This document shows positions 10,531-53,841 of a DNA stretch of 64,000 bases, piece by piece. The notes under the pieces were generated by a model, which saw nothing but the letters and a program-made list of their open reading frames with translations, made no database searches and had not been told where the DNA came from. The position numbers and the translations under genes were made by a program. Origin of the DNA: Mucilaginibacter gossypii (GTDB lineage Bacteria > Bacteroidota > Bacteroidia > Sphingobacteriales > Sphingobacteriaceae). Where the stretch lies: the NCBI RefSeq assembly GCF_900100945.1, contig NZ_FNCG01000007.1, forward strand, positions 166,091 through 230,090, in the 5' to 3' direction. Position 1 is the first letter of the stretch. Every line of letters begins with the position of its first letter.

Positions 10531-10579
10531 ATTTGATGTATTATCTTATTGAAATGTGTTTAAACCTACTCCCTTTTTA

Positions 10580-13500: not shown

Positions 13501-14446
13501 AGTAACGGCAGGCACAACAGGCACTCTTGCGGCAACCCCTGTTTATATACGACTTTCGGCAACAACACCCGTAGGTAATTACACCGGCGCCATATTAGTT
13601 AGTGCGGATAATACGGCCAGCAAAACTATTGCCACGGCAAATAATAATACGGTAAGCCCTGCTCCGTTAAGCATCACCGCCAATAACGTTCAAAAAACAT
13701 ATGGCGAAACATTATTAAACGTTGCAGTATCTCCCTCATTTACATCAACAGGGTTGCAAAATGGCGAAGTTATTGGCAGTATAACATTAACCTACGGTAC
13801 CGGTGCCCAATCTTCCGCGGCTGTTGGTATGTATCCGCTTTCGGTAGTGCCCTCAGCTCCGGCGGGCGGCACATTCAACATTGATAATTATACACTTAGT
13901 TTTATTAAGGGAAGCATTAATATTAACCAGGCCCCATTAACAATAACAGCTAATAACCAAAAGAAATATTATGGTGATGAAAACCCCGCTTTAACAGTAT
14001 CCTATAGCGGTTTCGTAAATATGGAAACAGCCTCGGTTTTATCGCCGCAGCCACTGGTTACTACTGACGCCATAGCAAACTCAATCCCTGGCCAATATCC
14101 TATATTAGTTTACAATGCGGGTAGCACAAACTACGCGATAACATATGTATCCGGTACACTTACCATTGAGCCTGTGAACCAGCTTTTAATTATACCAAAT
14201 ACCTTTACACCCAATGGAGACGGCATCAATGATGTCTGGAAAATTAAAAATATAGAGGATTACCCAAAATGTGTAGTGACCATATATAACAGATACGGTG
14301 AACAACTCCTTGCCTCAAATGGCTACGGTATAGCATGGGACGGCAAATATAAGGGGAAAGACGCCCCTGCAGCAACCTATTATTACCTGATTGATATAAA
14401 GAACGGCGGCAAACCCTTATCGGGTTGGGTTACCATTATAAGATAG
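10580..14446 (+). CDS. T9SS-secreted YVTN beta-propeller protein with MBG and type B sorting domain
   Basis: I choose ATG 10580 because the signal peptide starts there (MQRLLYVVLLITFFFSFLVQ); a GTG at 10556 would only add eight residues. Two modules follow. Each has a PKD-like segment (YIWKNNNPSIGLSATGAGNI; FTWVNDHPEIGLAVNGEGDI), then a seven-blade YVTN propeller (VSPDGSKVYVANA and similar), then the closing piece C..PV.F.ITVKPT. After each module comes an Ig-like segment (APAGFEVSLSQGSGYSNTLS). Two MBG-type repeats start near 13660 and 13930 (ITANNVQKTYGE; ITANNQKKYYGD). The last ~85 residues form a gliding-motility-type T9SS sorting domain (TFTPNGDGINDVWKI, IYNRYGE). It is an exported or surface-attached protein, probably an adhesin. 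Confidence 0.9.
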   Translation: MQRLLYVVLLITFFFSFLVQTAAQSNQTVTNGDLTTPAVFPGIGCSYIWKNNNPSIGLSATGAGNIQAFEAINTGNTPVTATITATPTAAGIAYILSNIGQLTLIDLASNQIISNSPTTYHPFGEAISPDGKIIYITDPDDGSVISVNAATFDVLGYTPTGPNSYPRAIAVSPDGSKVYVANAYIYNDYGTVNIIDTKTHNIITTTNVGSNPSGLVLSPDGSKLYVANHNSTFISVLNAITGSTIGQISMTVSTANLAIAHDGSELYATTDASFTNGTAITVINTATNQVTKTIIIGYSPASIAVSPDDKKLYVTNEDINTVSVIDNQTKTIVANILLPGGSYPISINLSPDGTKAYAVNQNGLISVINTANNTVINSIQTVTGALSYGKFISAGSGCSSSPVTFNITVKPTAATPLINAGPVSGTILACAGSASTSPHIQQFIVRGSNLTAAVAVTAPAGFEVSLSQGSGYSNTLSINPSGGGLSKTIYVRSAESSNVGGISGNVKLKSAGTSDQQVAVAGIVNALPTVNTVPNQVKANGTQSDPVTLTGSGNTFTWVNDHPEIGLAVNGEGDIAAFTTTNNTASAIVAKITATPLNSPYAYITNSASSSVSVINVATHKVIKTIVMGTDPQDITVSHDGKKVYVSDPISNTVSVIDVATNTVSATISVPAGSFSMAVSPDNSKLYLVAINPNLGNNDVYVINTATNHIISTLHVGVSIGMIALSPNGDTLYATDNGQNNLLVMNASNGQLQKTIPVGAMPASVIVSNDGTTAYVCNSGANTISIINTATNTVVKTVTVGTAPFALALSPDGSILYATGYSDGSLTAINTSSNTLRFQVNAGQYPMGVSVTPDGESVYVANSNSGTITVISALTGDKLETIPVGLNPFSIGSFITPVNSCPGQPVSFTITVKPTTVSANIKVSGNIDPLATIYGTSSATSGFIVSATNLTSGIQITPPSGFEVSTNGVNFSQTVTAGTTGTLAATPVYIRLSATTPVGNYTGAILVSADNTASKTIATANNNTVSPAPLSITANNVQKTYGETLLNVAVSPSFTSTGLQNGEVIGSITLTYGTGAQSSAAVGMYPLSVVPSAPAGGTFNIDNYTLSFIKGSININQAPLTITANNQKKYYGDENPALTVSYSGFVNMETASVLSPQPLVTTDAIANSIPGQYPILVYNAGSTNYAITYVSGTLTIEPVNQLLIIPNTFTPNGDGINDVWKIKNIEDYPKCVVTIYNRYGEQLLASNGYGIAWDGKYKGKDAPAATYYYLIDIKNGGKPLSGWVTIIR

Positions 14447-14737
14447 AGAGTGCCCCCACTCCGTCAATTTTAAAGCAATAAATACGGGGGTATACCTGGG
14501 CATGTTTAGCTACCGGCAAACCTCTTGAAAAAACGTTTGGAATATATTGGTCATATGATGTTCCTCCAATATTTAATAACCCCAATTTAACATTCACATA
14601 TTATATTTATAACCCACAAAATACTCTATATCAAATAAAATCTATATATTCATGAACAATTTGCAGGGCCTGGTTCTCCCCGGATCTGACCTTCGCAATT
14701 AAATTTAACCTTTCACAATTTGAAATACCCGGTCTGC

Positions 14738-17700
14738 ATGTCTAACATCTTTTTTGTAAAGCATTTTAAATTTATTTGCGCTATTGTAATCATTTTTAAA
14801 AGTAGCAGCTTATTTGCCCAGGCCCCTGTTATATCTTCGTTTATGCCTGTAAGCGGCGCGCCAGGAACAACAGTAACCATAAACGGATCTAATTTTAGTA
14901 GTAACCCCACGGATAACATTATTTTTTTTGGAGATACAAGAAGCACTGTAAATTCTGCTACAGCTAATCAACTTTCCATAACTGTGCCTGTTGGAGCCGT
15001 GAGCAGCCAGATTTCTGTTACAGCAAAAGGGTTGATGTCATATTCCCGAAACGCATTCCATGTAACTTTTGATGGGGCAGGCGTACTGGCGCCTACCGCT
15101 TTCGAAAAAGAAATAGACGCGCCCCTACCGAGCTATAGTGGCATGCTAAGATCAAAAGACATTGACGGAGACGGCAAAACCGACCTGGTATTTTCAAATC
15201 CCAGTAACAAGGCGATATCAATTTACCGTAACGTCAACACCCATGTGGGATCGATCTCTGCTTCCACTCTGGCTCCAAAAGCCGATATTAATATCGGCAA
15301 CGAAGCCATCTATATTGCAGTTGAAGACCTTAATGGAGACGGCAAACCAGATGTTGTAGGTTATAACAGCCAGGAGGCAAATTTAAATGTGCTGAGGAAT
15401 ACCAGTACGCCAGGAAATATTTCTTATGCCGCGGCTGTTAATATTACGGGAGCTAAAGGCATGGTGGCACTTACCACAGCTGATATTAACAGCGACGGCA
15501 AACCCGATATCATATTCCTTAACCCCAATGGCAGAGTTTTTTCAATTTTAATTAATAAAAGCACCGCGTCGGATATCGCGTTCGCGCCAAAGGCCGATTT
15601 CAGCACAGGTGGCAACCCCAATACTTTTACTATTGCCGATTTTGATGGCGATGGCAAAATAGATGTCGCGATAAGTAACCGGCTCATCAATGATAACTCT
15701 CCGGTTATATCCTTATTTCAAAACACCGGAAACAGTACGACAGTATCGTTCGGACCGCAAATAAATTATTCGACAACTACTTCTTCATATACATTGGCTG
15801 CCGGCGACATGGATGGCGATGGAAAGGTGGATATAGTGTTTCCAAACTACGGTAATTTGGCGGTATTGCAAAACACTTCGGTACCCGGATCAATGAAATT
15901 TAATTTTTGGGATTTTACAGACCCAACAGGTTCTCAACCTACAGGTATTTTAAGTGACGTGGATGGCGATGGCAAACCAGATGTGATTGAAAGTACAGGT
16001 TACATTACACATATAGTAAAAAACACCAGCACGCCCGGTTCATTTTCTTTTGCACCTGCCGCCGCTTTTAATACAAATACACCCTCTCTTTTCAGCGATC
16101 TTGATGGCGACGGTAAACCCGATCTGATATTGGCGAGTTATACATCAGGCCCAACTCTCGGTATACTCCGCAATAAAATAAACGAGCCAGCAGTTAATCT
16201 CATTTCGCCGGAAATTGGCCTCTCCGGCACACCGGTAAATATAACCGGCCTAAATTTAACCAAAGCGTTGGCAGTTACTATTGGAGGAGTAAACGCGGCG
16301 TCGTTTACGGTCAACTCACCTACCAGCATCACGGCGATAGTAGGCTCAGGAGCTACCGGTCCTGTAGTTGTGATAACAAAATATGGCACAGGCAAAGGTG
16401 CCGATTTTGTGTACAGCGTACCGGCACCAGTGATAAACTCGTTTACCCCTTTATCTGGCCCTGTAGGTACAACTGTTACCATATCGGGCAAAAACTTTAA
16501 TGCTATTGCCGCTAACAATATTGTATTTTTTGGTGTGGCCAAGGCTACTGTTACCTCAGCAACAGCCACACAACTGGTGGTAAAGGTGCCGGTCGGTGCA
16601 AATCATCAGCCAATCACAGTTGCTACAAACGGTTTGATGGCAGCCTCATCTAAAATATTTGATGTAACATTTACCGCGTCAGGCCCCTTTGCGCCCAACT
16701 CATTTAATAAAAGAATAGATATACCTGTGCCTGACTACCCGTCAGACGTTTTAATAGGTGATATCGACGGCGACGGTAAAACTGATATTATTGCTTTTAA
16801 CAGCAGTACATTTTCTTTTTTCAGAAATACAAGTTCAGTTGGTAATACATCATTTAGTACTAATAAGGACGTTACACCGTCAGGGAATATTGACAGGGCC
16901 ATTATTTCTGATATCGATGCCGATGGAAAGCCCGACCTGATCTATGTAAGCGTAACCGGTAAAAAGGTGGTAATTTTAAAAAACACCAGCATACCCGGAA
17001 CATTTTCCTTTGCAACTCCTATAACTATCGCCGACGGCGCGGCTCCAAACGGCGTCACAGCTGCCGATTTTGATAATGACGGCAAAACAGACATTGCTGT
17101 TTCGCATGCTGCAAACAATACATTTTCAGTTTTACGCAACACAACAGCAAACGGTAATATTGCTTTTGCCCCCGCCGTAGTTATTACATCTCTTAAGCCC
17201 GACTACCTGGGTGGCGTTTTCCCTGGTGATTTGGACGGCGACGGTAAAATCGACATAATAGCAATATCCGAAATCTCTCAAAATCAATTCAATTTAACTT
17301 TCAAAAACACAAGTACTATAGGTCATATTTCTTTCACTCCTGTAAATGCCTACCAAAACGGCTATCATCCAACAAACGTAATTATTGCAGATATTGATGG
17401 GGATGATAAACCTGATATGACAGTGCCTGCCGGTTATAGCACTTATTTGGTTTATAAGAACACAACATCATCAGGAGGGAAAATTGATTTTGCCAATGCT
17501 GTGGGTTATGAGGCTGGATTATATCCTAAGGGCTTGTCTATAGGTGACCTCAATGGCGACGGTAAACCAGACCTGGTTGCGCCCGATGGGAAATTCCCTG
17601 GTTCTATTGGTGTATTTAAAAACCTATCTACAGTTGGCACCATCCAACTTGCAGCAAAAGTTGATTACACTAAAGGCTCTTCTAATTCCAATATCTCCGG

Positions 17701-20700
17701 AACAGGATTTGGAGGCTCTGCAGTTGCAGATTTTGATGGCGATGGTCGTTTGGACATGGTCGTATCTACCTTTTATGGCAACACTATTTCTGTGTCAACA
17801 AATACCATCAATGCACCTGCAATAAGTTCGTTTACGCCGGCGTCTGCTACAAGGGGCAGCACCATTACTATTACAGGTACTAATTTAAATGGCACAACGA
17901 AAGTTACCTTTGGCGGTGTTGATGCATCATCATTCACCATTAAATCGGCGACAAGCATAACAGCAATAGTGGGCGATGGCGCAACTGGCGACGTTGCAAT
18001 AACAACCCCAGTCGCTACAGGCAAGTTGTCAGGTTTTACATTTCTCCCAGGCCCAACGCTTAAATCATTTAGCCCGCTTACCGCCGGGCCGGGTAAAACA
18101 GTGACTTTAACCGGCACTCATTTCGCAGGTGCCACGGCGGTAACTTTTGGCGGCATAAATGCCAGGTCATTTACGGTTATTTCAGATGAAAAGATAACCG
18201 CCGTGGTAAATAATACAGCTGCATCGGGTATTATTTCCGTAACGGTACCTGGCGGAAAGGCCTCCTTAGATGGCTATGTTTTTACGCTTAATCCTATTGT
18301 TAGCGCCTTTTCACCCGCCTATGGCGCAATCGATACTTCGGTTGTTATAGCAGGTAATAATTTCAATGCCGGAGTTGCAGGAAATATTGTTTATTTCGGT
18401 GCAACGAAAGCTGTAGTTACCGCGGCTACAACACAGCAACTATCTGTTAAAGTACCGGTTGGCGCTACCTACCAGTCCATATCGGTTTTAAATACATCGT
18501 CCGGTTTAACGGGCTTTTCGGTAATCCCATTTGTTGGTACCTTTAAAACCAAGTATAGTATAGCCGCAGCCGATTTTGACCCTAAGGTCGATTTCGCGCT
18601 ATCAAATGGCGCTAAGGCATCGGCCATAAGTGATATTGACGGCGATAAAAAACCGGATGTTATTGTTGTTAATTCGCTCGCCAATACAGTTTCAATTTTC
18701 AGAAATACAGCTGTGAACGGCAGTATTACATCAAACTCGTTAGCTTCCAAATTTGAACTGACCACTAAAAATACCCCGCAGGCTATAACAGTTACAGATA
18801 TTGACGGCGACGGTTTAAAAGATATAGCAGTAACCGCCCTGGGAGATAACAGCGTATCGGTTTTTCTCAATAAATCAGCAGGCGGCAATATTTCTTTTGC
18901 GGCTCCGGTAATTTTAGCTTCGGGTGCAAGCCCATACGGCATAGCGGCAGATGACCTGGACGGCGATGGTAAAACAGATCTGATTGCTACAAATCCAGCG
19001 GCCAACACCGTTTCAGTTTTTAAAAACCTAAGTACACCTGGTAAGATATTATTTGCTTTAAAAGTAGATATCGCGACCGGGAATACCCCACATGGAATAG
19101 CCACTGCTGATATTAATGGCGACGGCCTCCCAGAGATATTAACAGCCAACTTTAGTGATGCTACATTTTCGGTTTTGCAAAACCAATCAATCGCAGGTAT
19201 TATTGATGCAGCGTCATTTGCCGGTCACACAGAAACAACCGCCATTAATGGCGCCGAATCAATAGCGGTAGGTGATATTGATCAGAATGGCACGCCTGAT
19301 GTTGTTATTGCAGGCACTCAAAGCAACGCCGTTTCGGTGTTCAGGAACTCGTTGCAAGATCAACGGCCCACCTTCCTCGAACAACTTATTTTAAATACAG
19401 ATGAGGGGCCAGCGTCTGTAGCCATTGCTGATTTGGATGGAGATAGCAGGCCGGATATCATTACTGCCAATTCAACATCCAATACCTTATCTGTTTTCCG
19501 CAACATCATGCCTTTAGGGGGCGTGCCTGCGGCTATTTTCGCGCCAAAAATTATCATTGCGGCTCCCAATAACCCATCGTTTGTGAGCATCGGCGATTTG
19601 GATGGCGATGGCAAACCGGATATTATATCTGTAAAAACTCAAAACAATACGCTATCGATATTACGTAGCCATCCTGCCCAATCAACGGTTGTGCCGCCAC
19701 CTGTAATTTCGTCAATCACTCCCGGCAAGGGCGCAATTGGCACATCTGTTACCGTTAAGGGCAATAATTTTAATACATCTGCCGATGCCAATACAGTATT
19801 TTTAGGGGCTACGCAGGCAAAAGTCAACACAGCAACCGCCACGCAATTAAATATCACTGTGCCGGTAAGCGCAACTTACCAGCCTTTATCTGTGTTAAAT
19901 ACGGCTAACCATTTAACCGGTTATTCTAAAACTCCTTTTATTACCACGTTCGAGTCAAAAAAGAGTGTATCGGAAGCTGATTTAAGCTCGGCTGTAAATT
20001 TCCCAACCAATGCTTCACCTTATGGTGTGAGTGTTGGCGATATCGACGGTGATGGTAAGCCTGACCTTGTTATCAGTAATCCTGACAGGCATTCTATTTC
20101 GATATTTCGTAATACCTCGGTGAATGGTACAATAACAACATCGTCATTTGCCGCGAAAGTTGATTTCACTATTAACGGGGAGCCGCAAAAGGTTATTGTA
20201 ACTGATATTGATGGCGACGGAAAACCAGATGTAATTGTTAGCGGTTATTACGCTCCTAAAAGCTTTGTTTCAATTTTACGAAATACTGCTGTTAAAGGCG
20301 CTATCAACGCTTCATCATTTGCTGCGGGTGTAGACTTCACGGTTCCCGATGCTTCAAAAATGCAGGTAACCGATATAGATGTAGATGGTAAACCAGATAT
20401 TGCATTAGGAGACCTGACCATCCTGCTTAATCATTGTAAACAGGGCGGGATCAACGCCGACTCCTTTCCTGAACAGGCACTTTATTCATTGGGTTCGGCC
20501 AGCTATGCGTATGCATTTTATGATATCAATAACGATGGAAAACCAGATGTAATATTCAACGATAATTACAGCCATATTGCTATTGCCTTGAACAAATCGG
20601 TTCCCGGTAATCTTTCATTGGGCTCCCCTATCAAGCTAAAAAACTCGCTAAGTGGCGTCTCCTTACAGATAGCCGATATCGACGGCGATGGTAAAGCAGA

Positions 20701-23700
20701 TATCATGGCCATCGATTATGACCTCAACGCGGTGTATTTTCACCGCAATATTTCTGTGGGCAATAATATTAATGAAAATTCATTTGAAGATTATATTAAG
20801 TTTCCGGCAAACCAGAAAGCCTTTAATGCCGGTGGAAGCTCCGAATATCTGCAGGTTGCTGATATAGATGGCGATGGCAAACCCGATCTGCTCAACATAA
20901 GCAGCGGGTTAAAGGTATTTTCTCTTTTCCATAACATATCGACAGCAAATACACCATCTTATACTTATTTCGATACTAAATTTGATGTCAAAGCCGGCAA
21001 CAACGTTAGCGGCATTGCCGCAGTCGATATTGATGGTGATGGCAAACCCGACATTGTAACTGTAAACCGGGACGATGATACATTTTCAATATTCAGAAAT
21101 AATCCAACTCCCGCTGTTGTTTTAACGCCTCCAGTTGTCACGTCGGTTTCGCCAGCATCAGGTCCGGCGGGTACAATTGTAACCATAAAAGGTAAAAATT
21201 TTAACGGTGCGGCCGCTGGGAATATCGTAGCCTTCGGATCAGCAACTGCTGTAGTAAAATCAGCCACAGCAGAAAGCATTTCGGTGAGTGTTCCTGTCAG
21301 CGCTACATATGAATCGCCATCGGTTTTAAATACAGCCAATGGCCTTACCGGTTATTGGTCAGATAAATTTATCAGCACCTACCCACCCAAAAAGGATGAC
21401 ATAACGGAGCAGGATTTTGAATTGCCTGTAAGTGTTTATGGATACATGGCCGAGTATGTGCGCGTAGGCGACCTTGATGGTGACGGCAAACCCGACCTGA
21501 TAATTCACGATGGCTATCAAACGATTTCTGTACTTAGAAACCAGTCGGCTATCGGCCCAATTAATCCCGCCGCGTTTGGAGCTGTTGGTACTCTATCCAG
21601 TTACCGGTTTACCGTGGGTACCGATCCTCAAATCATAAAAGTGGCTGATATAGATGGTGATGGTAAACCCGATCTGTTAGTAAGCTATTACAGTTTTTAT
21701 GGCGTTGGCATATCTGTATTGTTAAACCGTTCAACGCCAGGCAATATAAATTTCGCCCCAAAAGTTGATATTGCTTATTATTCCACTCCGTTTGGCGCAA
21801 ATACTTATGTGGTAGAAACCGGAGATGTTGACAGCGATGGCAGACCCGAAATTTTAATCGCAAATTCATCTTTAAATGGTATTTCGGTATTGCCAAACAC
21901 CAGTAAGAAAGGCACAGTATCATTTGTTTCGCGATTTGATTTTGAGGCTGGCACACAGCCATCTGGTTTAAATCTTACTGATATTGATGGTGATGGTAAA
22001 CCCGACCTTGTAATTAGCAATAAAATGGATAACACAGTTTCTGTGTTGCGTAACATCACGGCTCCCGGTATTATCAATGCGGCTTCGTTTGAAAAACATG
22101 TTGATTATGCAACCGTTGCTTCGCCTACCAGCGTCATTACCGGTGATTTGAACGCTGATGGCAAAGCAGATATCATAGTTGTATCGAGCGAGCCTGTGCC
22201 TGGGATATCCATACTGCAAAATAAAAGTACTACCGGCGTTATTAATGCCGGCTCGGTGGGCGCCAAGGTTGATATAACCTCATTATTATCTGCAAGGGGC
22301 ATTGCCATAGCTGATATTGACGGCGATGCTAAACCCGACCTGGTTACAGGGCATACAGTGATCCGTAATATAAAGGGCAATGGCAATATTTCCCGCGCCT
22401 CCTTTGCAGCCAATGAAGTACCTGTAATGAAGATAAATAAGTTTTTTAAGGCATTTAGTGTTGAAGATATTGACGGTGATGGCATCCCGGACATCGTAGG
22501 GGTCGACGGTGGAGATCTCTCCATAGTCCGTAACAATCCTCTGGCCATAGGGCAGCCATATATATCATCCTTTAGTCCAGAATATGCCATAAAAGGCACT
22601 ACCGTTACACTTACCGGTAAAAACTTTGACAAGGTATCTTCCGTTACGTTTGGCGGTACACCGGCAGCTTCATTTAAAATTGCTTCGCCAACTACCATTA
22701 CAGCTGTTGTGGCAACAGGTGCATCTGGTAATGTGGCAGTAACCGCCCCTGCCGGCTCATCAATGAGGCCTGGATTTAACTTTGTACCGGCGCCAATCAT
22801 AACAGCCAATGGGCCAACCAAAATTTTTGCTGGCACCGGCGTTCAGTTAACCGTAAATCAGAGCTCTGGCAATTATTACCAATGGTTGCGCGATGGAGTT
22901 AAAATCGACGGCGCCACATCAATTAATTACACCGCTACGCAAAGTGGATCATATATGGTTATTGTAACAGTAAATAATATCAGCCAAACATCTGCTGCAA
23001 TCAGTATTACAGACTCGCCCGACTTGCCTGCCGACAACTTTAAATTGGCCATAACCAGTGTTTCATGTAAAGGCTCAACAAACGGGGCAATTAATATTAC
23101 GGCCCTTCAAAACCTAAATTATATCGCTACCATTACAGGTAACGGTGTAAATAACCAATATACTTTCAGGCATGATGTAACGATCAGTAACCTAACAGCC
23201 GGCACCTATTCTGTTTGTATTTCAATAGCCGGCCAGTCCAATTACAAACAGTGCTTTACAGCTGTAGTGAACCAACCGCAAGATCTTTCGGTGTACTCGA
23301 CCATAAATAATGAAAACAAAACAGTTACGCTTGCCATGACCGGCGGCGAGGAGTATCATATTTTACTTAACGGAACCAGCTACTCAACAAAAAACAGGAA
23401 TATAACGTTGGCGCTAACAGATGGTAATAACGATTTAACGGTTACCACCGATAAACTGTGTCAGGGCGTACTACAAAGAATAATTAATTTTTCGGATAAG
23501 ATCATACCATATCCTAACCCATTCCAAAATACTTTGCACCTGAATATTGGCAATGCGATATTCAAAAATGTTTCGGTGGAAATTTATGACATCGGTAACG
23601 GCAGAAAAGTATATGCTAAGCAATTTGGCGATCAATCGGGTAAGATTAGTTTAAACCTTACCGACCTTAGTTCCGGGCTTTATGGGCTGCGTTTAAATAT

Positions 23701-23740
23701 GGGTAATTCGGTAAAAATTTTTAAGATAGAAAAAAAATGA
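14738..23740 (+). CDS. Giant FG-GAP/VCBS and IPT repeat surface protein, type A T9SS domain
   Basis: The start is ATG 14738 (MSNIFFVKHFKFICAIVIIF, a signal peptide); TTG 14720 is an unlikely alternative. About 3000 residues contain 35 calcium-binding loops of the DIDGDGKPDL type, grouped 7+7+7+7+7 at about 15.16-16.15, 16.75-17.78, 18.63-19.64, 20.03-21.08 and 21.46-22.52 kb. The groups are separated by nine IPT/TIG-like domains of two subtypes (NIVFFG...VPV and VTFGG...AIV). After the last IPT come an Ig-like domain (NYYQWLRDGVKIDG), an SprB-like segment (SVSCKGSTNGAINI) and a type A sorting domain (IIPYPNPFQNTLHLNIG, ending KIFKIEKK). It is probably secreted through T9SS to the cell surface as a long calcium-dependent adhesin. 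A lipoprotein gene overlaps its stop by four bases. Confidence 0.92.
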   Translation: MSNIFFVKHFKFICAIVIIFKSSSLFAQAPVISSFMPVSGAPGTTVTINGSNFSSNPTDNIIFFGDTRSTVNSATANQLSITVPVGAVSSQISVTAKGLMSYSRNAFHVTFDGAGVLAPTAFEKEIDAPLPSYSGMLRSKDIDGDGKTDLVFSNPSNKAISIYRNVNTHVGSISASTLAPKADINIGNEAIYIAVEDLNGDGKPDVVGYNSQEANLNVLRNTSTPGNISYAAAVNITGAKGMVALTTADINSDGKPDIIFLNPNGRVFSILINKSTASDIAFAPKADFSTGGNPNTFTIADFDGDGKIDVAISNRLINDNSPVISLFQNTGNSTTVSFGPQINYSTTTSSYTLAAGDMDGDGKVDIVFPNYGNLAVLQNTSVPGSMKFNFWDFTDPTGSQPTGILSDVDGDGKPDVIESTGYITHIVKNTSTPGSFSFAPAAAFNTNTPSLFSDLDGDGKPDLILASYTSGPTLGILRNKINEPAVNLISPEIGLSGTPVNITGLNLTKALAVTIGGVNAASFTVNSPTSITAIVGSGATGPVVVITKYGTGKGADFVYSVPAPVINSFTPLSGPVGTTVTISGKNFNAIAANNIVFFGVAKATVTSATATQLVVKVPVGANHQPITVATNGLMAASSKIFDVTFTASGPFAPNSFNKRIDIPVPDYPSDVLIGDIDGDGKTDIIAFNSSTFSFFRNTSSVGNTSFSTNKDVTPSGNIDRAIISDIDADGKPDLIYVSVTGKKVVILKNTSIPGTFSFATPITIADGAAPNGVTAADFDNDGKTDIAVSHAANNTFSVLRNTTANGNIAFAPAVVITSLKPDYLGGVFPGDLDGDGKIDIIAISEISQNQFNLTFKNTSTIGHISFTPVNAYQNGYHPTNVIIADIDGDDKPDMTVPAGYSTYLVYKNTTSSGGKIDFANAVGYEAGLYPKGLSIGDLNGDGKPDLVAPDGKFPGSIGVFKNLSTVGTIQLAAKVDYTKGSSNSNISGTGFGGSAVADFDGDGRLDMVVSTFYGNTISVSTNTINAPAISSFTPASATRGSTITITGTNLNGTTKVTFGGVDASSFTIKSATSITAIVGDGATGDVAITTPVATGKLSGFTFLPGPTLKSFSPLTAGPGKTVTLTGTHFAGATAVTFGGINARSFTVISDEKITAVVNNTAASGIISVTVPGGKASLDGYVFTLNPIVSAFSPAYGAIDTSVVIAGNNFNAGVAGNIVYFGATKAVVTAATTQQLSVKVPVGATYQSISVLNTSSGLTGFSVIPFVGTFKTKYSIAAADFDPKVDFALSNGAKASAISDIDGDKKPDVIVVNSLANTVSIFRNTAVNGSITSNSLASKFELTTKNTPQAITVTDIDGDGLKDIAVTALGDNSVSVFLNKSAGGNISFAAPVILASGASPYGIAADDLDGDGKTDLIATNPAANTVSVFKNLSTPGKILFALKVDIATGNTPHGIATADINGDGLPEILTANFSDATFSVLQNQSIAGIIDAASFAGHTETTAINGAESIAVGDIDQNGTPDVVIAGTQSNAVSVFRNSLQDQRPTFLEQLILNTDEGPASVAIADLDGDSRPDIITANSTSNTLSVFRNIMPLGGVPAAIFAPKIIIAAPNNPSFVSIGDLDGDGKPDIISVKTQNNTLSILRSHPAQSTVVPPPVISSITPGKGAIGTSVTVKGNNFNTSADANTVFLGATQAKVNTATATQLNITVPVSATYQPLSVLNTANHLTGYSKTPFITTFESKKSVSEADLSSAVNFPTNASPYGVSVGDIDGDGKPDLVISNPDRHSISIFRNTSVNGTITTSSFAAKVDFTINGEPQKVIVTDIDGDGKPDVIVSGYYAPKSFVSILRNTAVKGAINASSFAAGVDFTVPDASKMQVTDIDVDGKPDIALGDLTILLNHCKQGGINADSFPEQALYSLGSASYAYAFYDINNDGKPDVIFNDNYSHIAIALNKSVPGNLSLGSPIKLKNSLSGVSLQIADIDGDGKADIMAIDYDLNAVYFHRNISVGNNINENSFEDYIKFPANQKAFNAGGSSEYLQVADIDGDGKPDLLNISSGLKVFSLFHNISTANTPSYTYFDTKFDVKAGNNVSGIAAVDIDGDGKPDIVTVNRDDDTFSIFRNNPTPAVVLTPPVVTSVSPASGPAGTIVTIKGKNFNGAAAGNIVAFGSATAVVKSATAESISVSVPVSATYESPSVLNTANGLTGYWSDKFISTYPPKKDDITEQDFELPVSVYGYMAEYVRVGDLDGDGKPDLIIHDGYQTISVLRNQSAIGPINPAAFGAVGTLSSYRFTVGTDPQIIKVADIDGDGKPDLLVSYYSFYGVGISVLLNRSTPGNINFAPKVDIAYYSTPFGANTYVVETGDVDSDGRPEILIANSSLNGISVLPNTSKKGTVSFVSRFDFEAGTQPSGLNLTDIDGDGKPDLVISNKMDNTVSVLRNITAPGIINAASFEKHVDYATVASPTSVITGDLNADGKADIIVVSSEPVPGISILQNKSTTGVINAGSVGAKVDITSLLSARGIAIADIDGDAKPDLVTGHTVIRNIKGNGNISRASFAANEVPVMKINKFFKAFSVEDIDGDGIPDIVGVDGGDLSIVRNNPLAIGQPYISSFSPEYAIKGTTVTLTGKNFDKVSSVTFGGTPAASFKIASPTTITAVVATGASGNVAVTAPAGSSMRPGFNFVPAPIITANGPTKIFAGTGVQLTVNQSSGNYYQWLRDGVKIDGATSINYTATQSGSYMVIVTVNNISQTSAAISITDSPDLPADNFKLAITSVSCKGSTNGAINITALQNLNYIATITGNGVNNQYTFRHDVTISNLTAGTYSVCISIAGQSNYKQCFTAVVNQPQDLSVYSTINNENKTVTLAMTGGEEYHILLNGTSYSTKNRNITLALTDGNNDLTVTTDKLCQGVLQRIINFSDKIIPYPNPFQNTLHLNIGNAIFKNVSVEIYDIGNGRKVYAKQFGDQSGKISLNLTDLSSGLYGLRLNMGNSVKIFKIEKK

Positions 23741-36784: not shown

Positions 36785-39700
36785 TCATTCATTTCGCAGG
36801 CTGTCGACAGGGTTGGCCAACGCAGCCCTAATAGATTGAAAGCTGATCGTAATCAACGCAATCGAAATCGCCGCGAACGCGGCTGCCGCGACCAGATACC
36901 ACTGGATAGTAGTACGATAAGCAAAACCCTGCAACCATTTTTGCATCGCCCACCAGGCCAGCGGCGTTGCAATAAATAATGCTATCACAACTAATTTCAA
37001 AAAATCTACAGACAACATACCTGTTATCTTCGATACGCTGGCACCCAGAACCTTACGGATACCTATTTCTTTGGTGCGTTGTTCCGCAGCGTAAGCTGCA
37101 AGGCCGAAAAGTCCCAGGCACGCTATTAAAATAGCCAGCGTACTGAAACACAAGAAAATTGTTCCCGCACGCTGCTCCGCACGATAAGTTGAATCAAAAT
37201 CGGCATCCATGAACGAGTAGGTAAACTGCTCGTTTGGTGAAAAGTGCTTCCATCTCTTTTCAATTAAAGCAAGCACGTTTGAAATCTCCCTGCCGCGCAA
37301 CCTCACATTGATAGCGCCATTATCGGGAGCATAATATAATGCTAAAGGCATAACTTCCTCGTGTAGTGAGGCATAATGAAAATCTTTAACAACGCCAACT
37401 ATATGATAAGGCTGGATTCCATATGAATCCCGGTACAACGTTTTATTCAAAGGATCTTTTGCGCCATACTTGCGTACAAATGCTTCATTTACGATCATGC
37501 CCGCACTATCTGTAGGCATATCTTTTGAAAAATTACGACCCGAGGCGAGCGTCAACCTCATGGTATGTATGTAGTCTTCATCTACCGGCCAAAATTCAGT
37601 CAGAATAACCTGTTTGATATCAATAAGCCGGGACGGGAAAAGACCGGTTCTCAACCGCAGGTCGCCGGTAGGCTGAAAAGCGCTCATACTCACATTTTCA
37701 ACCTCAGGAATCTGCTTCAATTCATTTTTGAATAAAGCAGCGCTGTTGCCCAGTACATCGCTGTTCTTAATAACTAGGACGTGGCTGCGATCAAAACCGA
37801 GGCTTTTGTTACGGATGAATTGGAGCTGATTAAAGATAACCAAAGTACTAATGATCAGGAAAATAGATATAGAAAACTGGAATACCACTAAAAAACTTCT
37901 CAGAAAACTGCCCTTAAAACCATTAGCAATCTTGCCCTTCAACACATCGATAGGTTGGAAAGCGGAAAGAAAAAAGGCAGGATATGCACCCGCTAAAAAT
38001 CCAACCACCAGGGCAATCAATAGTAATGTGGGAACCAGCCATACTAATTGTCCCCAATGCAGTGCCAGTTGTTTTGCCGCCAGTTGATTAAACATTGGCA
38101 ACAGCAACCAGGCTATTAATGCACCCATAAAAGCAGAAGCCACTGTCACTAGCATAGACTCAGTAAGGAATTGCACGATAATAAATTTTCGTGACGACCC
38201 CAGCACTTTTCTTACGCCTACTTCTTTAGTCCGGTTAGCCGACCGGGCGGTACTTAAATTCATAAAATTTACGCAAGCTATGAGCAGGATAAATATGGCG
38301 ATCACCGAAAATATATAAACATATTGAATATTGCTGCCCGCTTCCAGCTGATATTTTGCTTGATCGCGGAGGTGAATATCCGTTATGGGCATCAATACAG
38401 TTCTGAAATAATTGTCACCGCTGCTCCAGGCAGCCGGATTAAACGAATTTTTGATTTCGACAGCAGCGATCTCTTTTTCCAGCCGGTGTACATTAGCACG
38501 AGGTTTGAGCAATAAATAATTATGCATGCCGCCATAACCCCAGCCGTGTTGAGCACTTTCCGCACGCGAACTGTATGACAGGAAAAAATCATAGTGAAAA
38601 TGCGACTGCTCAGGAATATCTTTAATAACACCGGTGATTTTGTAGGCGCTGGTATCGTTGATGGTCAGCGTCTGCCCTACAACTGTTGTACGATTAAAAT
38701 ATTTTCTCGCCGTGCTTTCAGTTATTACGGCGCTGTGGGGGGCATCTAGCGCATTGGCGGGGCTCCCTTCAATCATCGGCAGGGTGAAAACCTTAAAAAG
38801 TGAAGATTCAGTAAACACAATCTTCTTTTCCTGTATATTCTCATTCCCTTTACGAATGTAAAATTTCGAGGGCGATAGAAACAGCCCGCCAACATCAATC
38901 ATGCGGGTCATTTGCTCAATTTCAGGAAACATGCCCTTAATGGTCGCAGGCAGGGGTTCTTCAGAAGTGGCGTACTGGTTCGCATTACCATTTAATTTAA
39001 CATCAAGCCCTATTCGGTATATACGGTCTGCGTGTTCGTTGTATTTATCATACCCGAGTTCATGAGTTACGTAAAAAACGATCAGTAAAAAGGTGGCCAG
39101 GCCCGCCGAAAGTCCGAAGATATTAAGAAGGGTGAAACCTATGTTTTTTTGCAGGCTGCGATAAGCGGTTTTCAAATAATTTCGGATCATGCTCTTGCGT
39201 TTGGGGCGTTGAGCTACCCGTACCCAGGTGCTTTCCCGAGGCAAGATTACTGGCTTATCAGCCGCCGGAAGTGTCAACTTATCATTTGACACTTCTTTTT
39301 TTAGCTTACGCTTATGTTCGGCCGGAGTTTGACCAGTTAATTCCTTAAAAAACCGGTTGAAAGTCGATTTAGAATTAAATCCCGAATCATATGCAATACC
39401 CAGCAAATTATAACGCTCGTAATCCGGATGGTGTAATTTCCTGATTACAGCCTGTATCCGCAACTCGTTGATAAAATCATTGAAGTTCTTTTTAAAAGAC
39501 TGATTAATAATACGCGACAATTCGTGCGGATGAATATCCAGCTTCTCTGCCAAAGTAGTTAATGATAGTTCAGCATCTTCATATAATCGATCGGCCGCTA
39601 CCACTTTTTTTAGCCACCTGCCCCTATCCCGTAAATTCTGGGGCACGGAAGTCGGCAAGGATTGTTCAGGTCTTGTATCCGATGCTGAAATGTTGCTAAA

Positions 39701-40222
39701 TCCAATCCAGATCAGTACCACAAGGATCCCAAGGACAATCAGGTCATTGAGCCAATATACAGCAGTCAGTAACAGGAGCACTTTGAGTATGCTGTCCAAT
39801 CGCCGGTATCTCATGAGCTGCCTGTCCATCAACACGGCTTGTTGACTCCGTTGCGCATCTCGGATTAACTGATGTGACAGGCACAAGTAGCCGGCCATAC
39901 TCAGCAGTACGATCCAGCCTGGAACTACCGGTAATAAAACCAGCGGGCCGAAATGCCACAGGTTACCGCGCTGAAATGTTCGCCCCGGATGGATTAATTG
40001 CAAAAAGTAAAAATAAAGTAAAGGTCCCCAGGCCAGCATTACAGATAACGGCAAGCCCGCAGCATGCAATAGCGTTACACTCAAAACCAAACTCAAATAC
40101 CGGTTGGCACTGCTGTTAATCCGTTTGCCGGACCATAAAAGCATAGCCACGGTAAACCCGGTAAAAATCATTCCGAGGAGAAAAAGCTCTAAGCTTTGAA
40201 TATGAAAGATGTTTGAATGCAA
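36785..40222 (-). CDS. Membrane AraC regulator fused to MacB/FtsX-type permease
   Basis: One 1145-residue chain. Residues 1-180 carry about five or six membrane segments. Residues ~205-310 are an AraC-type double helix-turn-helix (LSLTTLAEKLDIHPHELSRI; LLGIAYDSGFNSKSTFNRFF). A basic linker leads to Met345 (codon at 39190), where a complete two-half FtsX-type permease begins (MIRNYLKTAYRSLQKNIGFT). It has a periplasmic MacB-like domain, the cytoplasmic NRTKEVGVRKVLGSS and QRTKEIGIRKVLGASV loops, and ends VDSLRNE. No ATPase gene is adjacent. The architecture suggests transcription control coupled to permease state; the function is unknown. A sister protein lies at 50215-53841. Confidence 0.85.
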   Translation of the reverse strand: MHSNIFHIQSLELFLLGMIFTGFTVAMLLWSGKRINSSANRYLSLVLSVTLLHAAGLPLSVMLAWGPLLYFYFLQLIHPGRTFQRGNLWHFGPLVLLPVVPGWIVLLSMAGYLCLSHQLIRDAQRSQQAVLMDRQLMRYRRLDSILKVLLLLTAVYWLNDLIVLGILVVLIWIGFSNISASDTRPEQSLPTSVPQNLRDRGRWLKKVVAADRLYEDAELSLTTLAEKLDIHPHELSRIINQSFKKNFNDFINELRIQAVIRKLHHPDYERYNLLGIAYDSGFNSKSTFNRFFKELTGQTPAEHKRKLKKEVSNDKLTLPAADKPVILPRESTWVRVAQRPKRKSMIRNYLKTAYRSLQKNIGFTLLNIFGLSAGLATFLLIVFYVTHELGYDKYNEHADRIYRIGLDVKLNGNANQYATSEEPLPATIKGMFPEIEQMTRMIDVGGLFLSPSKFYIRKGNENIQEKKIVFTESSLFKVFTLPMIEGSPANALDAPHSAVITESTARKYFNRTTVVGQTLTINDTSAYKITGVIKDIPEQSHFHYDFFLSYSSRAESAQHGWGYGGMHNYLLLKPRANVHRLEKEIAAVEIKNSFNPAAWSSGDNYFRTVLMPITDIHLRDQAKYQLEAGSNIQYVYIFSVIAIFILLIACVNFMNLSTARSANRTKEVGVRKVLGSSRKFIIVQFLTESMLVTVASAFMGALIAWLLLPMFNQLAAKQLALHWGQLVWLVPTLLLIALVVGFLAGAYPAFFLSAFQPIDVLKGKIANGFKGSFLRSFLVVFQFSISIFLIISTLVIFNQLQFIRNKSLGFDRSHVLVIKNSDVLGNSAALFKNELKQIPEVENVSMSAFQPTGDLRLRTGLFPSRLIDIKQVILTEFWPVDEDYIHTMRLTLASGRNFSKDMPTDSAGMIVNEAFVRKYGAKDPLNKTLYRDSYGIQPYHIVGVVKDFHYASLHEEVMPLALYYAPDNGAINVRLRGREISNVLALIEKRWKHFSPNEQFTYSFMDADFDSTYRAEQRAGTIFLCFSTLAILIACLGLFGLAAYAAEQRTKEIGIRKVLGASVSKITGMLSVDFLKLVVIALFIATPLAWWAMQKWLQGFAYRTTIQWYLVAAAAFAAISIALITISFQSIRAALANPVDSLRNE

Positions 40223-49724: not shown

Positions 49725-50214
49725 CCGTTCGTAATGCTCAACCTGCGTAAAAGTAATCCTGAGGCTATTTGTCAATGCTTTCACTTCCCCTTATGTTCAG
49801 CGAAAAGCGAGGCAGTACCGTTCTTCGTATTTCGCCCTTTGTTTTTCCCCTCACCAGCCTACTTTTTTCTTGCCTTCCAAAGCATCGCAAATTTTGCCGC
49901 TTCTATCTCGTAAGCCTTTTATAAAAGGCTACGGCATAATAAAGCATTCTGCTTTACCCTTGGGAACTTAAGCCGTTGAAGCCGTCCCTGCGCCGACCAA
50001 AAAAGGGCCACTTTCTGGTTATTTTGCTGCGCTCAATTAGAAAAGATGCATAACGCTGGTTGAACTGGTGAACACCGATGATCTATTTAAAGAGCTGAAC
50101 ACTTACGTAATAGTTCAATCCCAATTGAATTCAGAAGTTGCCGGAATCGAACACCAATCGTCCGTTTTCGTTACAACCTGCTTTTGCTACCTTGTCATAA
50201 ATAATTAATTTTCA
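49725..50214. other. Intergenic stretch with palindromes
   Basis: No gene found. A perfect 18-bp palindrome lies at 49913-49930 (AGCCTTTTATAAAAGGCT), and a hairpin AAAGCA-TTC-TGCTTT about 10 bp later. These may end transcripts from either side. Bases 50080-50214 are the upstream region of the second fusion gene. Confidence 0.45.
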
Positions 50215-53200
50215 ATGATATTCACCCATGGAATGCGTATTGTTGCAAACTTTTTATTGGAAAACTTTACAATAAAGATCGGCATTACTGAGGTAGCTTA
50301 CCTGGGAGCGATCTATAGCAGCCTGGGTATGGCTGCACTTCTGGTTGTTGATAAAAGAAGCCCGAGGAAGAATGGCTGGCCATTAGCATTGGCCCTGGTC
50401 TTGATGCAATTTTCCCTTGTGCGCATCGTGGCTATAAAAGGCAGGTTCCCTGTTGATCTGCCAGACAGCCTCCTGGGTTTAGGCCCCCTGATCTACTTTC
50501 AAGTATTGAAGAAATGCCGGCCACTTGAAAAGCTTACATCAATGCACACATGGCATTTCCTTCCCTTGCTCATCACTTTAGGCATTCCGTTATGCTATCC
50601 CGCGAAAGCGACATGGCTAAGCGCGTTCTCCCCGGTTTCAGTCCTGCTTTACCTGTTAGCGGCTCATCGGGAAATAGTGGCCATGTACCATAGCCGAACC
50701 TTTATCGAGGGTGACCGTAACAGGAACGAAATGGAATGGCTTCGCCGGCCTTTAATAGTGTTAGGCGCAGTCTGGCTGCTCTTGTTAATTTTAGGGACCG
50801 GACACTATGTAATAATCAAAAATCCGGTACTATCCGCTATTGAACACTTCTTGTACCTGCTGTCAGCCATGTTGTTGATCTGGCTCGCCTTCCGGACTTT
50901 TATTCGGACACAAGGAAATTTGGATGTACCAGGAACCTCAGCTATAAAGCTTAACTTGAATGCTGATCTGAGACGTAAGGGTGGCCAATTGAAAGCAGCT
51001 TTGAAGCTGGAACACTACTACCGGGACCCGGAACTGGACCTCCGGTCGCTGGCTGAAAAAATGGATGTTCATCCTAATGAACTTTCCAGGATCATTAACG
51101 CGGTATTCAAAAAGAGTTTCAATGAGTTGATCAATGAATACCGGATCAATGACGTTATGCGAAAAATGCAGGACAGAAATTATGACCACCTGACCTTGCT
51201 CGGCATTGCTTATGAATCTGGTTTTAACTCTAAATCCACTTTCAACCGGGCATTCCGGGAAATGACAGGACAAAGTCCCGCAGAATATAAAAACGAATTA
51301 AAAAATAAGCGCCCAACTTATAACCTGGGACGAACAGGACACTTCGCTGTCCGACCTTCGGGTCATAAAACAGCCACGATTCAGGCTGAACTGGAATTAA
51401 AGCGAAAACTCATGTTGAAAAATAATTTAAAAATCGCCTGGCGTAATTTAAAGCGAAACAAGATCTACACGACGATCAACATTACCGGATTATCCGTTGG
51501 TATTGCAGCCTGCCTGCTGATATTCCTGGTCATTAAATATGAAACGAGCTTTGACGATTACCACCAAAAGCGTGACCGGATCAACCGGGTGGTCACGATC
51601 AGCAACGGGCCTGGCGGGGTGCATGCCGGCGTTGGCACACCGTTGCCGATAACCGAAGCTTTGAAACTCGATTTCCCGCAACTGGAGCAGGTGGCCAATA
51701 TCATGCAAAATTCTAATTCGCACTACACCGTGGATGACCTGCAACATACCGGCGTTGCCCGAAAGTTCAGGGAGCCGCTGGCTTATTACGCCGATCCGGA
51801 ATTCTTCGGCGTGTTCGATTTCAAGTGGCTGGCGGGTGATCGAAACACCGCGCTTTCGGCGCCAAATACCATTGTGCTGTCCCGCCAGGAGGCGAATAAA
51901 TTTTTCGGCGATTGGCGGACTGCCATGGGCAAAACGGTGAAGTTCGAAAATGCGCGCGACCTGCAAGTCACCGGGATATTTGATGATACACCGGTCAACA
52001 CTGACATCCCGATGAAATTAGCCGTTTCATGGGCGACATTAACGGTGGCTGGGGGAGAACTTTATGATAGCCAGCAAGACTGGGTCAGTACCTTTGGGGC
52101 GAAGAACTGTTATGTGGTTTTGCCACCCGGTTTAACGGCCGAACGGTTTAATCAAGACCTGCTTGCTTTTGCAAAGCGCCACTTGCCCGCAACGCCGCAA
52201 AAAGGTGAAAGCTACCAATTGCAGCCATTAAGCGATATACACTACAATACCGACACGACCGTTTACAGCGGACATCCTTTCAGCAGGCAGCTGATCAATG
52301 TGATCGGCCTGATCGGATGCTTTCTGTTGCTGATCGGCTGTGTTAATTTTATCAATCTGGCTACCGCGCAGGCGGTCAACCGTTCAAAAGAAGTGGGGGT
52401 GCGAAAGGTAATGGGCAGCAGCCGGCTGCAACTCGTTCTGCAATATATGAGTGAGACTTTGATCATTACCACCCTGGCGGTATCGTTGGCCGTCGTGATG
52501 GCGGTACTGGCTGTGCCGATGTTCAATAACTTGCTGGATACTGAATTACGCCGTTCTTTTCTAAATGATCCTGCTATCATCATGTTTTTGTTGGGCGTCA
52601 TTGCCGCCGTTACGCTGGTCGCCGGGCTTTATCCGGCCTTTGTACTTTCCGGTTTCAATCCCGTCGCAGCAATGCGTAACCAGGTGACCGCCGGCAGGGC
52701 CAGCGGTATGTCGCTCCGCAGGGTATTGGTACTTGCACAATTTTGCATCGCTCAGTTTTTGGTGATCGGAACACTGGTCCTGCTGCGTCAAATGGACTAT
52801 TTTCAAAACAAACCGCTGGGGTTCAATAAAGACGCAGTGATCACTGTCCCGGTTCCTGCAGACAGTTTGAGCCGATTGAAATTAAACAGCCTGAAGAATG
52901 AGCTGCTCACGCAATCCGGCATCAAAAATGTCAGCCTGAGTTTGTTCGGGCCATCTGATAAGAGCGGTTGGGCTACGGATATCAAGTACGACAACGCTGC
53001 CAAACCGGCAAATTTCGCGGTTAACTTAAAATGGGCAGACCGGGAGTATTTCAAATTATACGAAATGCAATTTGTTGCCGGCGGGCCATATCCGCAAGGC
53101 GATGTGGTAAAAGGCTACGTGGTCAATGAAGCGCTGGTTCGGCAACTCGGCATCTCCGATCCGAAACTGGTCATTGGCAAATATATTATGCTTTGGGACC

Positions 53201-53841
53201 GCAAGGATCTCTACGCCCCGATCACCGGCGTTGTTAAAGACTACCATATCAAATCTTTGCAAAATGCCATCCCACCGGTTTTGATGGGCGCTTCTTTGAA
53301 TCAGTACGCAAAACTTAACGTCAAGATCGATCTGCAGCATGTTGATCAAACGCTTTCAACTATTGAACGGCTATGGAACAAAACTTATCCTGCTGGAGTC
53401 TATGAGTATCAGTTCCTGGACCAGACCATCGCCAATTTTTATAAAAAGGAAAATGCGCTTGCGGTGCTGTATGAGATCTTCGCATCGGTTGCCATTTTTA
53501 TATCTTGCCTTGGCCTCTATGGTTTGGTTTCGTTCATGGCGGTACAACGAATCAAGGAAGTCGGCATCCGTAAAACACTGGGCGCTTCGGTGATCAATAT
53601 CGTCTTTTTGTTTTATAAAGAATTCACAGTGCTCATTCTAATTGCCTTTGCCGTCGCTGCGCCGATCGGCTATTACTGCATGGAAAAATGGCTGCAGGAT
53701 TATACCTACCGCATTCAGATAGGACCCGGCGTATTTGTGATAGCCATCGCCAGCTCCGTTTTTATTGCCTGGGTTACTGTCGGCTCAAAGGCGATCAAGG
53801 CGGCGTTGACCAATCCGGTAAAGAGCCTAAAGAGCGAATAA
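50215..53841 (+). CDS. Second membrane AraC regulator fused to MacB/FtsX-type permease
   Basis: The 1208-residue chain has the same order as 36785-40222: about six or seven membrane helices to residue 230, an AraC double helix-turn-helix at ~260-365 (LDLRSLAEKMDVHPNELSRI; LLGIAYESGFNSKSTFNRAF), a linker, and from Met400 (codon at 51412) a complete FtsX-type permease (MLKNNLKIAWRNLKRNKIYT). The two permease loops are NRSKEVGVRKVMGSSRLQLV and QRIKEVGIRKTLGASVINIV. There is no ATPase gene nearby. The AraC parts are close (about two-thirds identical by eye) but the permease parts differ more, so this is not a recent duplicate. Confidence 0.85.
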   Translation: MIFTHGMRIVANFLLENFTIKIGITEVAYLGAIYSSLGMAALLVVDKRSPRKNGWPLALALVLMQFSLVRIVAIKGRFPVDLPDSLLGLGPLIYFQVLKKCRPLEKLTSMHTWHFLPLLITLGIPLCYPAKATWLSAFSPVSVLLYLLAAHREIVAMYHSRTFIEGDRNRNEMEWLRRPLIVLGAVWLLLLILGTGHYVIIKNPVLSAIEHFLYLLSAMLLIWLAFRTFIRTQGNLDVPGTSAIKLNLNADLRRKGGQLKAALKLEHYYRDPELDLRSLAEKMDVHPNELSRIINAVFKKSFNELINEYRINDVMRKMQDRNYDHLTLLGIAYESGFNSKSTFNRAFREMTGQSPAEYKNELKNKRPTYNLGRTGHFAVRPSGHKTATIQAELELKRKLMLKNNLKIAWRNLKRNKIYTTINITGLSVGIAACLLIFLVIKYETSFDDYHQKRDRINRVVTISNGPGGVHAGVGTPLPITEALKLDFPQLEQVANIMQNSNSHYTVDDLQHTGVARKFREPLAYYADPEFFGVFDFKWLAGDRNTALSAPNTIVLSRQEANKFFGDWRTAMGKTVKFENARDLQVTGIFDDTPVNTDIPMKLAVSWATLTVAGGELYDSQQDWVSTFGAKNCYVVLPPGLTAERFNQDLLAFAKRHLPATPQKGESYQLQPLSDIHYNTDTTVYSGHPFSRQLINVIGLIGCFLLLIGCVNFINLATAQAVNRSKEVGVRKVMGSSRLQLVLQYMSETLIITTLAVSLAVVMAVLAVPMFNNLLDTELRRSFLNDPAIIMFLLGVIAAVTLVAGLYPAFVLSGFNPVAAMRNQVTAGRASGMSLRRVLVLAQFCIAQFLVIGTLVLLRQMDYFQNKPLGFNKDAVITVPVPADSLSRLKLNSLKNELLTQSGIKNVSLSLFGPSDKSGWATDIKYDNAAKPANFAVNLKWADREYFKLYEMQFVAGGPYPQGDVVKGYVVNEALVRQLGISDPKLVIGKYIMLWDRKDLYAPITGVVKDYHIKSLQNAIPPVLMGASLNQYAKLNVKIDLQHVDQTLSTIERLWNKTYPAGVYEYQFLDQTIANFYKKENALAVLYEIFASVAIFISCLGLYGLVSFMAVQRIKEVGIRKTLGASVINIVFLFYKEFTVLILIAFAVAAPIGYYCMEKWLQDYTYRIQIGPGVFVIAIASSVFIAWVTVGSKAIKAALTNPVKSLKSE

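Follow-up and report, generated by a model that had tools for sequence, protein, structure and literature searches.

One membrane-bound AraC regulator module joined many times to divergent MacB/FtsX-type permeases in Mucilaginibacter

A single regulator module, made up of a terminator-like hairpin, a promoter, a seven-helix membrane (7TM) domain, an AraC-type helix-turn-helix (HTH) and a linker, has been joined on many occasions to distinct permeases of the MacB/FtsX type (ADOP/YbbP-like) that had already diverged. Recombination near the join and, less often, at the border between membrane part and HTH continues to carry the module from one permease lineage to another. Two members of the family lie on a 64,000-nucleotide stretch of the genome of the soil bacterium Mucilaginibacter gossypii (RefSeq assembly GCF_900100945.1, contig NZ_FNCG01000007.1, positions 166,091 to 230,090 of the forward strand), here called the window, to which coordinates refer unless a locus or contig is named. 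As an overall explanation we favor a repeatedly joined, swapping module that works as a transmembrane regulator, with a probability of about one half.

The gene at 50215-53841 (plus strand) encodes 1208 amino acids in a frame that is open throughout, with zero internal stops, and its ORF, Pfam and NCBIfam matches and AlphaFold model give the order 7TM domain, AraC HTH, linker and duplicated MacB/FtsX permease. Seven membrane helices are predicted at residues ~24-234 (50284-50916) by a model of residues 13-419, with pLDDT mostly 77-97 over the helical part and a mean of 84 for these first 407 modelled residues alone. The HTH_18 domain that follows (residues 279-360; 51049-51294) passes the Pfam cut-off with an E-value of 9.8e-17, and its structure matches are DNA-binding domains of the AraC family. 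A linker of ~40 residues (361-399; 51295-51411), disordered in the model with pLDDT <50, leads to an internal ATG at the join (Met400; 51412-51414) that corresponds to the start codon of stand-alone permeases. The permease has two halves, each with a large periplasmic domain in the AlphaFold model. It comprises a MacB-like periplasmic core domain (MacB_PCD, residues 419-649; 51469-52161; Pfam E 2e-24), a first FtsX domain with the coupling motif EVGVRK (residues 699-816; 52309-52662), placed by Pfam and invariant columns, and a second FtsX half with the coupling motif EVGIRK (~residues 1068-1208; 53416-53838), placed by Pfam, model and alignment; FtsX is hit by Pfam in two stretches (E 6e-22). 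No curated family in Pfam or NCBIfam matched this protein from end to end.

The second gene (36785-40222, minus strand; 1145 aa, TTG start) has the identical domain order by Pfam and NCBIfam, with its AraC HTH at residues 224-305 (39308-39553, minus strand; Pfam E 2e-15) and its internal ATG at the join (Met345; 39188-39190, minus strand). A preliminary description made from the sequence alone had noted this shared architecture, had judged the AraC parts to be closer to each other than the permeases, and had found the linkers to differ. All three observations were borne out, with 64% identity in the HTH against 31% in the permease and 25% in the membrane part, and 17% in the linker. The AraC parts of both window genes are fast-evolving in the AraC tree. 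As a separate observation, the 7TM part aligns with GPCR bundles at Z up to 16 over 220 residues, the top rows all being GPCRs, although helical bundles score high by default; Foldseek gives a weak match to GPCR bundles (E ~0.1). The window also encodes, at 10556-14446, a 1296-aa protein that combines beta-propeller-like repeats and MBG_2 domains with a type IX secretion C-terminal domain, and, at 14720-23740, a very long ORF of 3006 aa.

The host genome (7.1 Mb, 45 contigs) carries six fusions and ~30 like permeases that lack the AraC part; all six of its 7TM-AraC modules of this subtype are fused. Six full-length copies on five contigs, and 97 full-length unique copies from many assemblies, exclude an assembly artifact or chance join and establish the real gene family that had been proposed from the two window genes. 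The possibility raised alongside that proposal, that only these two copies are fused and relatives keep the parts as separate genes, fails: 81 of 149 Mucilaginibacter genomes have a strong fusion match. A genome of this genus may hold up to at least 13 fusions, often in tandem runs, and nearly all of the matches listed in the genus sit in open frames of ~1200 aa. Within a phylum-wide sample of 395 Bacteroidota genomes, the long fusions among the matches listed all came from Mucilaginibacter, and the stand-alone 7TM-AraC module (~370-450 aa) was present in 104. Outside the genus the family is rare; single fusions were found in Chitinophaga rupis and Parapedobacter tibetensis, and a third family has one intact and one decayed fusion (L088, genome G249). 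Fusions from outside the genus nest within the Mucilaginibacter AraC-module clade in the trees, which suggests that they were acquired by horizontal transfer.

Trees of both parts, as the preliminary description had advised, were built from 97 full-length fusions (92 once near copies were removed), and the permease tree also took in 39 stand-alone permeases. They proved incongruent. Fused AraC modules form a single clade with support of 98, and the one unfused row nested among them in a larger AraC tree (L095) is a fusion split by a frameshift. Fused permeases, by comparison, are mixed among stand-alone ones: the permease tree requires 23 changes between the fused and unfused label, of which well supported branches force at least 19, a count that varies with sample and long branches and whose detail fast trees overstate. 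A single clade of fused permeases was rejected by the AU test on a smaller set (p = 3e-7). Some permease lineages occur in both the fused and the stand-alone state at 78-81% identity, the stand-alone copies being preceded by an ordinary intergenic region. Pairs of fusions are chimeric in both directions. Locus L131 and a host-genome copy on contig C27 (L016) share 86% identity in the permease and 46% in the AraC part (62% and 26% at four-fold sites), whereas other pairs share 83% in the AraC part and 32% in the permease, the dissimilar part being saturated at four-fold sites. Across pairs the identities of the two parts are only weakly correlated (r 0.23). The word "independent", as it had been applied to the two window fusions, fits the joins to different permeases but not the AraC part, which arose once.

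The join itself is sharply defined. All 97 full-length fusions have the internal Met, which is the ancestral start codon of stand-alone permeases, and Phe follows it in 98 of 113 fusions versus 13 of 46 stand-alone permeases (Fisher p 1e-12), an excess indicating that the first codons travel with the module. Synonymous conservation is ~0.24 in the AraC part and steps down exactly at the join to 0.10 in the permease; its maximum for the gene (0.5) is in the linker. A change-point scan resolved two groups of breakpoints, at -21 to +45 nt around the internal ATG and at ~-300 to -470 nt, where the membrane part meets the HTH, with two breakpoints further upstream still; the milder breaks at that border could also reflect unequal rates. 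Where two fusions are alike in the AraC part but not in the permease, the break mostly falls at +20 to +40 nt, and in a few cases further downstream. In Mucilaginibacter flavidus (L095:7992-11659 and L210), one fusion has been broken by a linker frameshift into two intact genes, one for a 7TM-AraC protein and one for a permease whose start is the internal ATG. Gene breaks as a class do not cluster in the linker; of five interrupted genes, one is broken there and the others in the permease. Upstream, family genes are preceded by a conserved promoter-like stretch and terminator-like hairpin, from which we infer that the moving module probably begins at the hairpin and extends to the join. A remnant of the conserved terminator-like block that precedes most family members, CGTCCGTTTTCGTTACAA, lies at 50159-50176 (plus strand). 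The terminator-like inverted repeat AAAACCGAAC..GTTCGGTTTTGTTACA (e.g. in L108 and L163) travels with the fused gene and not with the preceding gene.

An ABC ATPase gene was found neither on the window's contig (C16) nor closer than 10 kb to any of the host genome's six fusions. Both ATPase-coupling motifs are kept in 97 of 113 fusions and 40 of 46 stand-alone relatives, and candidate MacB-type ATPases are encoded elsewhere in the host genome. On contig C27 (C27:128143-174673, L017-L019), ~18 stand-alone MacB/FtsX permeases lie in tandem, with two MacB-type ATPases and HlyD-like and TolC-like genes bracketing them. This array resembles a single pump locus in which many permeases are interchangeable; several of them carry in-frame stops. 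No conserved operon partner or recombinase was found near the family, the commonest neighbor, a LytTR-like sensor/regulator pair, occurring at 12-13 of ~88 loci. Because no neighboring gene is conserved across the family, no regulon is suggested. The nearest stand-alone 7TM-AraC relative by score (L215) sits in a cluster of such permeases, one of which, beside it, carries permease prefix domain 2; this context hints at a functional link between 7TM-AraC proteins and permeases that predates the fusion. At 30 other stand-alone 7TM-AraC loci no permease adjoined the gene (flanks of ~1.5 kb, 6-8 kb at three loci). A permease at L021:2801-5575 has an unassigned N-terminal extension of ~114 aa, which matches no Pfam or NCBIfam model; its appearance, by eye, as a FecR-like anti-sigma fusion was therefore discarded.

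The linker is variable as protein (residues 361-400, mean identity 45-49%) and constrained as DNA. Single codons are nearly fixed within it: CCA for Pro in 79 of 79 genes (17% gene-wide), GTA for Val in 59 of 59 (30%), TCT for Ser in 49 of 51 (11%) and TCG for Ser in 62 of 65 (19%), as are TTA for Leu (72 of 78; 19%) and CGC for Arg (66 of 72; 25%) just before the internal Met. Binomial p-values for these codons take no account of relatedness. Among 843 pairs saturated in both halves, however, codon sharing still reaches 72-74% in the core and first linker block, compared with ~40% elsewhere, so that shared recent ancestry alone is insufficient to account for the pattern. The core is AT-rich (27% GC versus 44%), and the conserved blocks are AAAAAAGA, CCATCTTATAATTTG, GGTAATTTCG and AAATTAAACCGCAATTATATG; the two window copies keep the join Met and part of these blocks. 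Such strong synonymous constraint implies that the linker carries a nucleic-acid element, for which the candidates are a recombination target, an internal start or promoter, or an operator. The palindromic block CCAnnTTATAAnnTGG resembles a stem. RNAalifold finds no consensus pair, however, the middle positions of the block do not pair and it is degenerate in the host-genome copies, so that an RNA hairpin was rejected and CCAnnTTATAAnnTGG looks like a DNA dyad at most. The linker is not a dispersed repeat either, as it occurs only in fused genes or their remnants.

How the pattern of joins and the linker DNA arose can be read in several ways. A single old fusion, whose AraC part was later lost many times and whose permease evolved faster, would agree with the one clade of AraC modules, but we regard it as very improbable given chimeras in both directions with synonymous sites saturated in the unlike half, the sharp step at the join and swaps within permease orthologues. 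For the linker, one tentative reading is an internal promoter and/or ribosome start, which would let the locus produce, besides the full fusion, a separate permease begun at the internal ATG; the constraint on the linker DNA would then serve this start, in a manner compatible with our main explanation. The invariant Met (97/97), the codons fixed right before it, the AT-rich core, the codon sharing of core and first block in otherwise saturated pairs (72-74% versus ~40%) and the two open genes left by the M. flavidus frameshift, the second from the internal ATG, would all fit such a start. By inspection, however, there is no good Shine-Dalgarno sequence and no full Bacteroidota -7 box (TAnnTTTG), blocks TAATTTCG and TTATAATTTG being near misses only, and swaps at the same core account for part of the conservation. 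It is likewise possible, though we would not presume it, that the core is a recombination target, through short homology with permease 5' ends and possibly a site-specific core, that drives permease capture, the remaining linker blocks serving capture too. Breakpoints of the join group do fall at the core, 22-26 nt of which match the starts of stand-alone permeases at 92-100%, and the full linker is otherwise confined to fused genes or remnants. No recombinase or transposase gene recurs near the family, however, the conserved blocks reach 100 nt upstream of the exchange point, and the second set of breakpoints, at the membrane/HTH border, is what ordinary homologous recombination would give.

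With respect to function, we read the domain content mainly as that of a one-component regulator tethered to the membrane, in which a MacB/YbbP-type permease would serve as sensor or cargo and the ATPase would come from elsewhere. The fusion product would reside in the inner membrane, with the HTH in the cytoplasm, held between 7TM bundle and permease. A ligand or envelope state, sensed by the permease's periplasmic domains, the 7TM bundle or both, would alter HTH dimerization or access to DNA, making the protein a one-component transmembrane transcription regulator that probably acts on its own promoter and perhaps on nearby genes. Because both coupling loops are kept, an ATPase encoded elsewhere probably still binds the permease, which would be a sensor-transporter that borrows its ATPase, as in systems of the BceAB or CbrA type. 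Without an ATPase, an orphan permease may be inactive, or may be active solely as a transporter. The structural matches of the permease to YbbP, MacB, LolCDE and BceAB(S) fit a role at the envelope, for example in the sensing or extraction of peptides or lipophilic compounds. The permease may instead be cargo and not sensor, in what is essentially an efflux or extraction permease controlling its own expression. The retained coupling motifs, the unit's own conserved promoter and the stand-alone C27 array with its bracketing MacB-type ATPases, HlyD-like and TolC-like genes lend themselves to this idea. We nonetheless consider it doubtful, as the unit has no ATPase of its own and simple autoregulation does not need a regulator fused to every permease copy.

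Under the regulator reading, module swapping would yield combinatorial pairs of sensor or pump with regulator. We offer, as a speculation less probable than not, that a dedicated DNA element within the coding linker serves to shuffle the one membrane-bound AraC module among a stock of divergent permeases, so that cells and strains would re-wire which envelope signal governs transcription. Signaling of the proposed kind would mean a covalent tie between transcription and an ABC-type permease, and would offer a direct handle on what the large, uncharacterized orphan-permease families of Bacteroidota and Acidobacteria sense or move. As an example of domains joined repeatedly at a single exact point, the family is unusually clean: one regulator module is combined with many permeases, and the coding linker holds a conserved DNA element. 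The family makes the origin and diversification of multidomain receptors directly testable within one genus.

Judged by sequence, the parts come from known families, and the architecture as a whole, which falls with N-terminally extended orphan permeases and membrane-bound one-component regulators, matches no curated Pfam or NCBIfam family over its full length; no published description of an AraC-FtsX fusion was found in the open-access literature. The nearest structures to the permease half are YbbP, MacB, LolCDE and BceAB(S), with E. coli YbbAP(-TesA) and MacB, both Type VII ABC transporters, as its best matches. YbbP has the duplicated layout of the fusions, and the FtsX domains, large periplasmic domains and ExGxRK-type coupling loop are all traits of Type VII (MacB/LolCE/YbbP-like) permeases. 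YbbAP and MacB differ in lacking an HTH and in having their ATPase encoded beside or within the permease. Lipid extraction is described for YbbAP-TesA (PMC12646458). Acidobacterial duplicated orphan permeases (ADOP, TIGR03434) resemble the fusions in their two MacB_PCD-FtsX halves, large paralogous families and want of an adjacent ATPase, a layout present in the 50215-53841 protein, but known ADOPs have no 7TM-AraC prefix. TIGR03434 aligns to residues 403-1208 of that protein at 288.9 bits, below the cut-off of 622.3, and scores to the model range over 289-325 bits against this cut-off (622). Open-access literature on ADOP yielded nothing beyond a genome note (PMC11573002). Transporters with permease prefix domain 2 (NF038404) carry a short N-terminal prefix on the same kind of permease; this prefix is of ~60 aa and not a 7TM-HTH regulator, the window protein has no match to it, and no open-access paper on permease prefix domains was found. 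Stand-alone 7TM-AraC regulators of Bacteroidota have the same 7TM and HTH_18 module but are unfused and lack the linker element. BceAB-BceS and CbrA are sensor transporters that report to gene expression through histidine kinases. They share with the fusions a transporter part linked to gene expression; in place of a histidine kinase, the transporter of the Mucilaginibacter fusions is covalently joined to a DNA-binding domain.
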